Shown here in pieces: positions 1 to 5,853 of a stretch of 5,853 bases of DNA; positions within the stretch are counted from its first letter, which is position 1, and every line of letters starts with the position of its first letter. The stretch is from Candidatus Desantisiibacteriota bacterium. GTDB taxonomy: Bacteria; JACRDZ01. The notes below the pieces were generated by a model. That model was not told the DNA's origin, made no database searches, and saw only the letters and a list, made by a program, of their open reading frames with translations. Made by a program: the position numbers and the translations under genes. Location of the stretch: contig JACQWU010000086.1 in NCBI GenBank assembly GCA_016209155.1, positions 1 to 5,853 of the forward strand, written 5' to 3'.

Positions 1-825
1 TAAAGCCTCCGCTCTTGAAGCATTTACAGAGACATCAAATGCGGCTATTATTTCAGGGACATCTGTTCTGTATCCGGTGCATATTAATCTCTTCTCAATT
101 CCCAGATCACAGGCTAATTTTTGCAAAACATCATTATTTAATGTACCTTCACCTACCAGCATAAATTTAGTTTTTGGATTTTTTTTGTTTATCAGTTGTG
201 CTGATTTGAGAAAAATGTCATGCCCTTTATAAAGCGAATAATTTGCGATTTTCCCAACCAATATTTCTCCCGGCTCAATTTTAAATTCCTGTCTTATTCT
301 GTCCCCGCTTATATCCGGATTAAATCTTTCGGTATCAACCACACTGTGAATAACGGTAATTTTTTCAGCAGGTATATTTGTATCCAAGAGTATCTTTTTT
401 ACTGCTTCTGAGACTGCGACTATATTATCAATTCTGGAGGCATGATATTTAAAATATGAAAATGGATTATTACGTATTTTAAAAACAACCCTTCTTGAAG
501 CAATAAAAATTGTGCCTGGCAGCCATAATGAAGATAGTAGTCCTAAAGTATGTGCTTTTGGATGATGTGCATGGATTATATCGATATTATTTTTTTTTGC
601 AAAATGAATTATTTCTCTTATGGTTTGAAAATTTATCTCTCTTTTAAAATCAAAAGTTACAACAGGCAGTTTATGCCCGCTATTTGCATATAAAAACAAT
701 CTGCTTTTTTTATCGCATCCGATAAAAATTTCCACATTACGCTTCATAAGCCCCCTGGAAAGCAGAATTAACTGCTCAATTCCACCGCTCCAGCTGCATG
801 CATCGGTTAAATGTAATATTTTCAT
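1..825 (-). CDS. GT4-family glycosyltransferase, C-terminus cut by the window edge
   Basis: Reading leftward from 825, the frame is open for 275 codons to the edge, so the C-terminal part is missing. The protein is a GT-B fold retaining glycosyltransferase that would move a sugar from a nucleotide-sugar donor onto a growing surface glycan at the cytoplasmic face of the membrane. Visible family features are: start MKILHLTD with a glycine-rich loop SGGIEQ (13-18); HAHHPKAH (85-92); VAVSEAV (136-142); VIHSVVDTERFNP (158-170), the typical domain linker; GKIANYSLYKGH (191-202), donor-site loop; LVGEG (223-227); and GYRTDVPEIIAAFDVSVNAS (251-270). The frame ends at SRAEAL, whose Glu273 would be the first Glu of the EX7E motif; the second Glu lies outside. 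An in-frame ATG at 843 adds six residues (MNHRKK). Neither start has a strong ribosome binding site, and MKILHL is the more usual family beginning. It follows the family 2 transferase on the same strand, about 160 bp downstream, with a REP-like pair between. Donor and acceptor cannot be told from sequence. Confidence 0.9.
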   Translation of the reverse strand, partial: MKILHLTDACSWSGGIEQLILLSRGLMKRNVEIFIGCDKKSRLFLYANSGHKLPVVTFDFKREINFQTIREIIHFAKKNNIDIIHAHHPKAHTLGLLSSLWLPGTIFIASRRVVFKIRNNPFSYFKYHASRIDNIVAVSEAVKKILLDTNIPAEKITVIHSVVDTERFNPDISGDRIRQEFKIEPGEILVGKIANYSLYKGHDIFLKSAQLINKKNPKTKFMLVGEGTLNNDVLQKLACDLGIEKRLICTGYRTDVPEIIAAFDVSVNASRAEAL

Positions 826-895
826 TTTTTTTCTATGGTTCATTTTTTCATTTAAAAATTTCCGTAAGTCATTGATATTATTCGAAAATATGGCA

Positions 896-981
896 GGTAG
901 GAGTAATCTCCTGATTGCGATATTTATAAATTCGTTATAGCATTACAATTACAACATCGCAGTCAGGAGACTGCTCCTACC
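896..981. repeat. Pair of inverted REP-like palindromes (BIME-type element)
   Basis: Two 26-nt arms, 896-921 and 956-981, are inverted copies of each other (23 of 26 identical) separated by 34 nt. Each arm also folds alone into a 6 bp stem with a 4-nt loop: 903-908 with 913-918, and 959-964 with 969-974. Each begins with the foot GTAGGAG and ends with GCGA. The three differences between arms all keep the stem: one A-T pair is replaced by G-C on both sides, and one C-G pair is replaced by T-G. The GTAG foot at the base of a short hairpin is the hallmark of REP elements moved by Y1 (RAYT) transposases. The GTAGGAGC...GCGA layout resembles Pseudomonas REPs, from memory of the family. It starts 5 bp past the stop of the upstream minus-strand gene and could stabilise or attenuate the message between the two glycosyltransferases. 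No clear T-run follows on the minus strand, so a plain intrinsic terminator is unlikely. The rest of the gap holds nothing else I recognise. Confidence 0.82.
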
Positions 982-986
982 AGCTC

Positions 987-1772
987 TTATAAATTTTTAT
1001 ACCCCTTTGTGCTAATTTGTAGCTGATACATTTCCCATAATTTTAAATATTTAGTAAATACATATATTGAACTTAAAATACACCAGAAAAAACCGTGTAT
1101 CCCGTCTAAAAAACCAAGCTGAAGGAAAAAAGTCTGTATAAATTTAAAAGCCGGTCTTATAGTAAAATGATACCAGTGAGGGCGTTTTTTATTTTTATAC
1201 ATTTCTTCCGCAGCCCATGATGTATAGCGGTTAAGTTTCTCAAAATATTTTACTATGTTACGCTGCTGATAATGTTCTAAATAACCTTTATTAATATATC
1301 CTGCTCTGCCTTCAACAATTTTTTCCGCATGAACTTTTTTATCTTCGCACCGTCCCTTATCACGTCTGAAAAACCGTATACTTTTATCCTTTCTTTCCCC
1401 GCAAAAATTTATACACTTGCCCAAAAAATGATTACGCCGGAAAATATAATATCCATTATATTCTTTATTATCATTTTCCAGAATATACTCAATGCTTTTT
1501 TTTAGTGCGGGATTAACAACTTCATCAGAATCAATAAGAAGAACCCATTCATGTTTTAATTGCGGAATAGTCCAATTACATTGCGAAGCATTACCAATAT
1601 ATTCATGCTGAATTATATTGGAAGTATACCTGCGGCATATATCTAAAGTACGGTCGGTACTATAAGAATCAACGATAAGCAATTCATCTGCCCATAAGAT
1701 ATTTTTAAGACATTTTTCAATTATATCTTCCGAGTTATAAGTTTTAACAAAAATAGATATTTTTTTACGCAT
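987..1772 (-). CDS. Family 2 glycosyltransferase, WaaE/KdtX-like (beta-1,4-glucosyltransferase type)
   Basis: This 261-residue protein matches the usual length (about 250-260) of the WaaE/KdtX-like GT2 group, which add a sugar to LPS core or a similar surface glycan at the cytoplasmic face of the inner membrane. The GT-A fold is plain: MRKKISIFVKTYN at the start; WADELLIVDSYSTDRTLDIC (27-46), the nucleotide-binding strand and loop typical of this group; LLIDSDE (78-84), holding the DxD-type metal/donor site Asp81-Ser-Asp83; and VHAEKIVEG (147-155), near the position where relatives have a conserved VHE. The C-terminal part (about 205-245) is rich in aromatic and hydrophobic residues (FFLQLGFLDG, FFWCILSSIYVFTKYL), as in relatives, and probably contacts the membrane. 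No Shine-Dalgarno is seen before the ATG, which fits the near-leaderless promoter found there. The start is supported by the family-typical N-terminus. The gene is divergent from the UDP-xylose genes and upstream of the GT4 gene. Sugar specificity is not assignable. Confidence 0.92.
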   Translation of the reverse strand: MRKKISIFVKTYNSEDIIEKCLKNILWADELLIVDSYSTDRTLDICRRYTSNIIQHEYIGNASQCNWTIPQLKHEWVLLIDSDEVVNPALKKSIEYILENDNKEYNGYYIFRRNHFLGKCINFCGERKDKSIRFFRRDKGRCEDKKVHAEKIVEGRAGYINKGYLEHYQQRNIVKYFEKLNRYTSWAAEEMYKNKKRPHWYHFTIRPAFKFIQTFFLQLGFLDGIHGFFWCILSSIYVFTKYLKLWEMYQLQISTKGYKNL

Positions 1773-1998: not shown

Positions 1999-2940
1999 AT
2001 GAAAAGAATTCTTATTACCGGCGGAGCCGGTTTTCTTGGCTCAAATTTATGCGATTTATTAATAGCAAAAGGGTATTATGTTATATGTATGGACAATCTT
2101 ATTACAGGCTCGCCTGATAATATAGCTCATCTTATAGGACATAAAAATTTTAGTTTTATACAGCATGATGTTACAAATTATATTTATGTGGAAGGCAAGC
2201 TTGATTATATTTTGCATTTTGCTTCACCCGCAAGTCCAATAGACTATATGGAATTCCCTATCCAGACTCTTAAAGTCGGGTCTCTCGGTACACATAAAGC
2301 ATTGGGACTTGCGAAAATCAAAAAAGCGGTTTTTCTTCTTGCCTCAACATCCGAAGTATACGGCGACCCGTTAATACATCCTCAGAAAGAAAATTACTGG
2401 GGAAATGTAAATCCTATCGGCCCGCGCGGGGTTTATGATGAAGCAAAACGTTTTGCCGAAGCGCTTGCTTTTGCATATCATCGCTATCATGATGTTGATA
2501 TCCGTATTGTACGTATTTTTAATACTTTCGGCCCGCATATGAGATTGAATGACGGAAGAGTCGTCCCGAATTTTATTTATCAGACTTTGACCGGCAAGCC
2601 CATTACCATTTTCGGGGATGGAACCCAGACCCGCAGTTTTTGTTACGTTTCTGATTTGATAGACGGGATATATAAATTGATGCTTTCCAAAGAGACAGAA
2701 CCTGTAAATATCGGAAATCCTGCTGAGATGACTATTCTTGAATTTGCTAAATTGATCAAAAAACTTACTCAAAGTAAGAGCAAAATTGATTTTAAACCTT
2801 TACCTGTTGATGATCCCAGAATACGTCAACCGGATATAACTAAAGCTAATAAATTATTAAAATGGAAACCAAAAGTAAGCCTTGAAGATGGACTTATAAA
2901 AACAATACAATGGTTCAAAAAGAATAGAAAAATCAAATAG
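1999..2940 (+). CDS. uxs: UDP-glucuronate decarboxylase (UDP-xylose synthase)
   Basis: This enzyme converts UDP-glucuronate to UDP-xylose and CO2 with bound NAD, in the cytoplasm. At 313 residues it has the normal length of short bacterial UXS proteins. It is an extended short-chain dehydrogenase: the NAD loop GGAGFLG is at residues 8-14; [11 protein letters not shown] (73-83) and [17 protein letters not shown] (87-103) are UXS signatures; [12 protein letters not shown] (113-124) carries Ser118-Glu119; [11 protein letters not shown] (141-151) carries the catalytic Tyr146 and Lys150; [20 protein letters not shown] (172-191) and [17 protein letters not shown] (204-220) are the nucleotide-sugar part; and DDPRIRQPD (271-279) supplies Arg276, aligned with the arginine needed for decarboxylation in ArnA-type enzymes. 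By these residues it looks active. The start is supported by AGGAG 6 nt upstream and by the family N-terminus [11 protein letters not shown]. It is the first gene of its unit, 28 bp before the broken UDP-glucose dehydrogenase that would make its substrate. Confidence 0.96.
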
Positions 2941-2968: not shown

Positions 2969-4028
2969 ATGAAAATATGCGTAGTCGGGACAGGATATGT
3001 CGGGCTGGTTGTCGGAGCATGTCTGGCGGATTTGGGAAATGATGTTGTATGTATAGATGTTGTAAAAGAAAAGATAGATAAGCTTAATAATGGTATTATT
3101 CCTATATATGAACCGGGGCTTGAACAGTTGGTGAAATATAATTTAGAGCGTAAACGTCTGCGTTTCAGTATAGATTTAGTATCAGGGATAAAAATTTCAA
3201 AAGTAATTTTTATTGCAGTCGGAACTCCGAGTAAAAAAAGCGGAGATCCGGATTTAAGCCAGGTGAAAGAGGTTGCCGTTCAAATAGGTAAAAATCTTAA
3301 TTCATACAAAGTTATTGTTAACAAAAGCACTGTCCCTGTAGGTACCGGAAAGGTTGTAAAAAAAATTATTCAGGAAAATTTAGCGAATAAAAAACTGGAT
3401 TTTGATGTGGTATCCAATCCCGAATTTCTTAAAGAAGGAGCTGCTATTCAGGATTTTATGCGACCGAATCGGGTGGTTATTGGTACTGAAAGTTCGAAAG
3501 CCATAAAAATAATGAAAGATATTTATGATTCATTATTTCTTTCAACAGGTACATATTTTGTGTCCACCAATCTTGAAACTGCTGAAATGATTAAATACGC
3601 TTCCAATGCTTTTCTTGCCGCAAAAAATTGAAAAAAATTTGAAAAAAATAAAAGGAAAATCGATAGGCATTTTGGGACTGGCTTTTAAACCTAATACTGA
3701 TGACATGAGAGAATCCCCTTCTATTGTGATAATAAATGAGCTGGTGAAAAAAGGCGCCGGAATAAAGGTTTTTGATCCCATGGCAATGGGACAGGCAAAA
3801 AAAATATTTTCATCATTAAAAATTGAATTTTCAGATAATAGTTATGAAGTCGCGCGTAATAGCGATGCTCTGGTTTTTCTCACGGAATGGAATGAATTCA
3901 GAGAGATTGATTTTGTGAAATTAAAAAAACTGCTTAAAAGCTTTATTATTTTTGATTTGCGTAATATTTTTGAACCTGACAAAATAAAAAAACTTGGTTT
4001 TGAGTACATAGGAGTCGGGAGAAAATAA
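2969..4028 (+). pseudogene. ugd: UDP-glucose 6-dehydrogenase, internal deletion plus frameshift
   Basis: An intact Ugd (usually about 430-450 residues) oxidises UDP-glucose to UDP-glucuronate with two NAD. The first part (2969-3631, 220 codons) has the NAD-binding start MKICVVGTGYVGLVVGACLA, IYEPGLEQL (46-54), FIAVGTPS (76-83), NKSTVPVGTG (118-127) and VVSNPEFLKEGAAIQDFMRP (148-167). It runs to KYASNAFLAAK, reads one more codon (Asn) and stops at 3629-3631. The C-terminal part resumes in another frame at about 3621 (KIEKNLKKIKGKSIGILGLA) and ends normally at 4026-4028 with GLAFKPNTDDMRESPS and EYIGVGR. Missing is the block normally following FLAAK: the ISFINE helix, the dimer core and the GGSCFPKD motif with the catalytic Cys. 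By comparison with family length about 85-95 codons are lost; the net loss is 3n+2 nt. The join lies in an A-rich tract (3621-3650). An ATG at 3606 opens the second frame but has no ribosome binding site. AAAGGGG (2953-2959) precedes the first start. No activity is expected. A sequencing or assembly collapse would look the same. Confidence 0.9.
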
Positions 4029-4045: not shown

Positions 4046-5853
4046 ATGATAAAGAAGGTTTTATGTTTTGTATTTGTTGTTTCATTTTCTGTTATAGCTT
4101 CAGTTTTCGCATTTGATTCAACACTTTTAAAAGAGGAAAAAGTAAATCGTTATGTGCTGGATAACGGGATGATTGTTCTGCTTAAAGAAAATCATTCTTC
4201 TCCGGTTGCGGCAATACAGATATTGGTAAAAACCGGAAGCAGCACCGAGGGAGATTTTGAAGGTACGGGAATTTCTCATTTTGTCGAACATATGCTGTTT
4301 AAAGGGACGAAAAAAAGAAAAGTTGGAGACATCCCGAATGAAATAAAAGAAGCCGGCGGAACGATAAACGCTTATACTACTTATGATTATACAGGTTATC
4401 ATACAGTTGTAGCAAGCCGCTATTTTGATATTGGGCTCGATGTTCTTGCCGATTCGATCATGAATTCTATTTTTGATGAAGATGAATTTGATAAGGAAAA
4501 AGACGTGATATTGAAGGAAATTAATATGAATGAAGACGACCCTCGCAGGTCTCTTTATCTTCTTTTCTGGAATACTGCTTTTACATCGCATCCTTATCGT
4601 TATCCGGTGATAGGGTATCGGTCACTTTTCAGCAAATTGACAAGAGACGATCTTCTTAAATATTATAGAGAAAAATATATACCGAATAACATGGTTTTAA
4701 TAGCGGTCGGAGATATAAATTCAAATGAAGCCATTGAAAAAATAAGAAAAATTTTCAAAGATTACAGCAGAGGAAAATTGAAATCTGTTTATATTCCTCA
4801 GGAACAAAGACAAATGGGCAAAAGAGAACTCATAGTGGAAAAAGATATTAATGTTGTGCATATGATTATGGGTTATCACGGTCCTGATATTTTCAGTCAC
4901 GATATTTATGCCTTAGACGTACTTTCAATAATACTCGGGGAAGGACGCAGCTCCAGGCTTTTTAAAGAATTAAAAGAAAAGAAACAATTAATATATTCTG
5001 TAAGAGCTTTTTCCAACACACCAAAAGATCCGGGAATAGTAGGTATAAGCTTTACCCTGGATAAACAGAATGTTAACACTGTTCAGGAAGCGTGCATAAA
5101 AGAAATTGAAAAAATATATTCAGAAGGAGTAACTGAGGATGAAATAAAAAAAGCTGTCACACAGGTCGAAAGTGACACTATTTTTAGCCAGCAGACCGTT
5201 GAAGCGCAGGCAGGAAATATCTTATCAAATGAGGTAGTGGCAAACAATATAAATTTTTCAAAAATTTACCTTGAAGGTATTTCTAAAGTTACAGGTGAAG
5301 ACATAAAGAAGGTCATCTCTAAATATTTCACTCAGGATAATTTAACTGTTGCTATGATTATTCCAAGGCAATCAAATGGTCTTGATTCTTCGGCAGTAAA
5401 GACTTCAGGAGAGGTGAAAAGTGAAAATAAAGTCAAAAAAACAGCTTTAACCAATGGAGTTCGTGTTTTAACCAAAGAAAATCAGGATTTACCCATAATT
5501 AACATTAAAGCAGTATTTCAGGGCGGAGTGAGATACGAAAATGAAAAAAATAACGGAATTAGTAATTTTATCCAGACAATGGTAAAAAAAGGTACAAAAA
5601 CGTATTCGGCAGAAATGCTAAATGATACAATAGAATCCATCGGAGGATCATTGGAAGCTTATAACGGGGATAATAGTTTCGGATTCACATTAAATGTATT
5701 AAAAAGAGATTTTGACAAAGGATTAAAATTGCTGAATTCTGTTATCTTTGAACCGACATTTCCTCAGGAAGAGATAGACAAAGAACGGAAGAATATTCTT
5801 ATGTCCATACGCACCCGTGAAGATAATGTTTTCGGTTCAGCAACCCGTCTATT
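4046..5853 (+). CDS. M16 family zinc metallopeptidase, exported, double-unit type, C-terminus cut by the window edge
   Basis: The frame is open from the ATG at 4046 to the right edge (602 codons); complete fused relatives are around 850-950 residues. Residues 1-22 form a signal peptide: MIKK, a hydrophobic core, then a likely cut after VFA, so the protein should act in the periplasm or outside. The first M16 domain has the inverted zinc motif HFVEH (His78, Glu81, His82) within GISHFVEHMLFKGT and, 76 residues after His82, Glu158 in DVILKEINMNEDD as third ligand, the family's normal spacing. INAYTTYDYTGYH (107-119) is also typical. The second domain has GEGRSSRLFKELKEKKQLIYSV (298-319), carrying the Arg/Tyr pair of M16B enzymes. 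A third domain begins near 466 (TALTNGVRVLTKEN); in it the motif is degenerate, ISNFIQTMVKKGT, with Asn, Gln and Thr in place of the zinc-binding and catalytic residues, so this half is probably structural. The start is supported by AGAAGG at 4033-4038 and by the signal peptide. It lies 17 bp after ugd, probably on the same transcript. Its substrate is unknown. Confidence 0.93.
   Translation, partial: MIKKVLCFVFVVSFSVIASVFAFDSTLLKEEKVNRYVLDNGMIVLLKENHSSPVAAIQILVKTGSSTEGDFEGTGISHFVEHMLFKGTKKRKVGDIPNEIKEAGGTINAYTTYDYTGYHTVVASRYFDIGLDVLADSIMNSIFDEDEFDKEKDVILKEINMNEDDPRRSLYLLFWNTAFTSHPYRYPVIGYRSLFSKLTRDDLLKYYREKYIPNNMVLIAVGDINSNEAIEKIRKIFKDYSRGKLKSVYIPQEQRQMGKRELIVEKDINVVHMIMGYHGPDIFSHDIYALDVLSIILGEGRSSRLFKELKEKKQLIYSVRAFSNTPKDPGIVGISFTLDKQNVNTVQEACIKEIEKIYSEGVTEDEIKKAVTQVESDTIFSQQTVEAQAGNILSNEVVANNINFSKIYLEGISKVTGEDIKKVISKYFTQDNLTVAMIIPRQSNGLDSSAVKTSGEVKSENKVKKTALTNGVRVLTKENQDLPIINIKAVFQGGVRYENEKNNGISNFIQTMVKKGTKTYSAEMLNDTIESIGGSLEAYNGDNSFGFTLNVLKRDFDKGLKLLNSVIFEPTFPQEEIDKERKNILMSIRTREDNVFGSATRL

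Follow-up and report, generated by a model that had tools for sequence, protein, structure and literature searches.

A 254-nt internal loss that splits ugd beside a UDP-xylose synthase gene is probably an assembly artefact

The window, by which we mean the whole stretch of 5,853 nt that we analyzed, comprises positions 1-5853 of contig C34 (11,181 bases in total) in a draft genome (G000) of 3.08 Mb that is divided among 352 contigs and is 79% complete. Its edge adjoins an N gap, a run of 67 N at C34 positions 5854-5920. A scan of genome contigs revealed no close relative of this genome, the best match having ~63% identity. The window contains the following features:

1..843 and 987..1772, minus strand: two glycosyltransferase genes (GT4-like; family 2)
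1999..2940, plus strand: intact UDP-xylose synthase (UDP-glucuronate decarboxylase), 313 aa, identified by its best solved relative
2969..3631, plus strand: N-terminal NAD-binding part of UDP-glucose 6-dehydrogenase (Ugd), identified by a PF03721 match
3621..3630, plus strand: probable false join, CAAAAAATTG, located by comparison with intact L003 and L004; 254 nt missing
3624..4028, plus strand: C-terminal UDP-binding part of the same ugd (PF03720), in another frame
4046..5853, plus strand: M16 peptidase gene (PF00675/PF05193), cut off by the window end

The best solved relative of the UDP-xylose synthase is UDP-glucuronic acid decarboxylase 1 (E 2.4e-113), and the occurrence of glycosyltransferase genes beside the UDP-xylose synthase/ugd pair suggests a surface polysaccharide locus. 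Between both glycosyltransferase genes, GGTAGGAGNNNTCTCCTGANTGCGAT is present in two inverted copies (window positions 896-921 and about 956-981), a pair that resembles a REP-type palindrome. At up to three mismatches, 562 kb of this genome contain four matches to this sequence, the window pair included, and 1.6 Mb of G003 contain no match.

The ugd gene is encoded in two halves that lie in different frames. The first half is an ORF of 220 aa that ends in ...KYASNAFLAAKN followed by a TGA codon at 3629-3631; its residues 1-185 match PF03721 (E 4.7e-68), it is 74-75% identical to the intact Ugd of G001 and G003, and its PDB matches are headed by UDP-glucose dehydrogenases. The second half matches PF03720 (E 5.6e-33) and is 76% identical to the intact relatives. 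The central domain (PF00984), which contains the GGSCFPKD motif with the catalytic cysteine, has no match in either half. The first-pass annotation, made from the letters of the window, had described a Ugd that has lost its core and changed frame with the remaining parts well preserved, and this domain content and the 74-76% identity to intact relatives bear that description out. In its N- and C-terminal domains, its identity to two relatives, and its neighboring gene, the window copy is like a bacterial Ugd of the Ugd/TuaD type (TIGR03026); unlike members of that type, it lacks PF00984 and the catalytic cysteine, and its frame is broken in this assembly.

The nearest relatives that we compared are G003 (L003) and G001 (L004), which belong to the same phylum. 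UDP-xylose synthase is encoded directly upstream of ugd in both, as in the window, and ugd is intact as one open frame of 445 codons in G003 and 439 codons in G001. The comparison with close relatives that had been proposed as a check thus finds the gene pair with an intact Ugd in both genomes. In an unrelated genome (L006, G004:C43, minus strand), an intein apparently interrupts the UDP-xylose synthase upstream of ugd and has both a LAGLIDADG-like domain (PF14528, E 1.2e-12) and a splicing domain that scores below the cut-off (E 3.3e-7); to our knowledge, an intein in UDP-xylose synthase is unusual.

The missing stretch can be measured from conserved flanking residues. Of 50 intact homologous frames, 37 place the GK(S/T)IG motif 95 codons (285 nt) from the lysine of the AAK sequence; the window has 31 nt between these points, a shortfall of 254 nt (3x85-1). 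The same loss of 254 nt is obtained from the alignment of a relative's Ugd and from the CAAAA-to-CAAAA distance in L004. A missing segment had been anticipated correctly, although at 254 nt it is slightly shorter than the suggested 260-290 nt. The edges are visible in the intact L004 sequence as GGCGGCAAAAGTT upstream and ATTCAAAAAATTG downstream, and in the window the left edge passes into the right one at CAAAA to give GCCGCAAAAAATTG. These five nucleotides (3621-3625) are common to both ancestral edges; the relatives support CAAAA only, and not the longer AAAAATT that had been proposed for both edges. Among random deletions of 200-300 nt in ugd, about 1% would have five or more bases in common at their edges, so that this short overlap departs somewhat from chance.

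The same kind of break recurs elsewhere in this draft. We searched the reading frames of G003 (about 1.6 Mb) against 60 contigs (562 kb) and found that 7 of 97 orthologue-like genes, ugd included, have lost 79-385 nt internally and continue in a different frame after the loss, in a survey that is small and in which divergence could contribute for L163 (repeats) and for L162, radC (less conserved). The flanks in the seven cases abut or stand no more than 53 nt apart. Besides ugd, one repeat protein, and one unnamed protein, the affected genes are those for pyruvate phosphate dikinase (385 nt lost), accA (79 nt), radC (103 nt), and an RtcB-family gene (101 nt); a CapD-like and a MraY/WecA-like gene provide two more such cases under the identity cut. 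In the reverse control, in which ORFs of G000 were compared with G003, none of 74 had such a loss. The 97 genes also have three in-frame gaps (15-40 aa) and two in-frame gains, which we counted as a bias check and which are as expected from ordinary divergence. A rate of 7/97 for frame-breaking losses is not plausible as biology.

Essential genes are affected as well. The rpoB gene of the draft (C276:271-3964, L253) is split into two parts that cover model positions 3-849 and 858-1237 in different frames with overlapping coordinates, and it is intact in G001, G002, and G003. Its join, AAAAGGAGAGAGCC, at about position 2770 of C276, lacks 10 residues and 32 nt, breaks the frame, and offers just a few bases that the edges could have in common; it is of the same form as the ugd join. 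Because rpoB is a single-copy essential gene that a living cell cannot carry broken, the rpoB join is an assembly error. In addition, alaS (C332:9636-11893, L261) is interrupted by a gap of 12 N whose two flanks carry the same 11 nt, and dnaE and ileS are present in this draft only as fragments or contig-end copies. The sampled contigs contain 17 short N runs; at five of these, 7-23 nt on one side are identical to those on the other. For IDBA-UD and CLC assemblies, Chen et al. (2020; PMC7111523) described N gaps that were introduced although the flanks overlap, and they also described local assembly errors, unsupported by reads, that put wrong proteins into public databases. The breaks in this draft are like those errors in that genes are broken at joins and N gaps occur despite duplicated flanks; they differ in that the visible error is a stretch lost between ends that abut.

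Because the same kind of break recurs in unrelated and essential genes of this draft, we read the ugd join as very probably an assembly artefact, a false join across an unassembled stretch of 254 nt, and assign this reading a probability of roughly 0.94. On this reading, the TGA that closes the ORF at 2969-3631 is artificial.

The principal alternative is a real and recent deletion of 254 nt, by short homology or slippage, that inactivated ugd in the sampled population. The CAAAA common to both edges counts in its favor and against an artefact to the extent that a 5-nt overlap is equally expected from a natural short-homology deletion, and the good preservation of both halves fits a recent event. 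The draft also contains no other Ugd that we could find, and the missing core was not found elsewhere in the assembly; at 79% completeness, such absence proves little. The search for a second ugd that the first-pass annotation had recommended returned a single further PF00984 gene, on C312, which we rejected as a Ugd based on its full-length best match to GDP-mannose 6-dehydrogenase (1mfz, E 3e-147), as against 1.5e-62 for the best UDP-glucose enzyme. We consider a real deletion very unlikely given that about 7% of the sampled orthologue-like genes have the same defect and the control relative has none, that the defect extends to rpoB, which is indispensable to a living cell, and that nearby N gaps point to a scaffold built over unsequenced stretches. 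Short-homology deletion, replication slippage, and collapse during assembly had been offered side by side as explanations; the survey and rpoB strongly favor collapse and speak against the other two.

Still less credible, to the point of being negligible, is a functional split or frameshifted Ugd, made as two proteins or as one by frameshifting on the A-rich stretch. The downstream frame can be read from an ATG at 3606, inside the upstream ORF, but neither frame encodes the catalytic cysteine motif or the central dimer domain, so that a working dehydrogenase in either form is impossible. Moreover, the core occurs elsewhere in the genome only in the GDP-mannose dehydrogenase, and relatives in the phylum encode the homologue uninterrupted in a single frame.

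On the artefact reading, the genome of the organism most likely contains a normal, unbroken ugd with about 440 codons, the middle of which would have been left unassembled in the metagenome assembly. Paired reads probably set both contig ends side by side, and the assembler or a gap-closing step would then have merged the ends on CAAAA, with 254 nt dropped and the frame shifted as a result; we infer that the specific step was scaffold merging or gap closing.

The first-pass annotation had also raised the possibility that the UDP-xylose synthase has lost its local substrate source. With the join a likely assembly artefact, we set this idea aside, and nothing in our results supports a loss of UDP-glucuronate supply; it is improbable that a genuine, very recent deletion of the Ugd core forces the UDP-xylose synthase to obtain UDP-glucuronate from elsewhere. 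This draft loses internal pieces of genes without any mark in the sequence, and we are cautious in interpreting it: until reads have been mapped, genes that seem to be pseudogenes or to be split, and pathway steps that seem to be absent, should not be taken as the biology of the organism.
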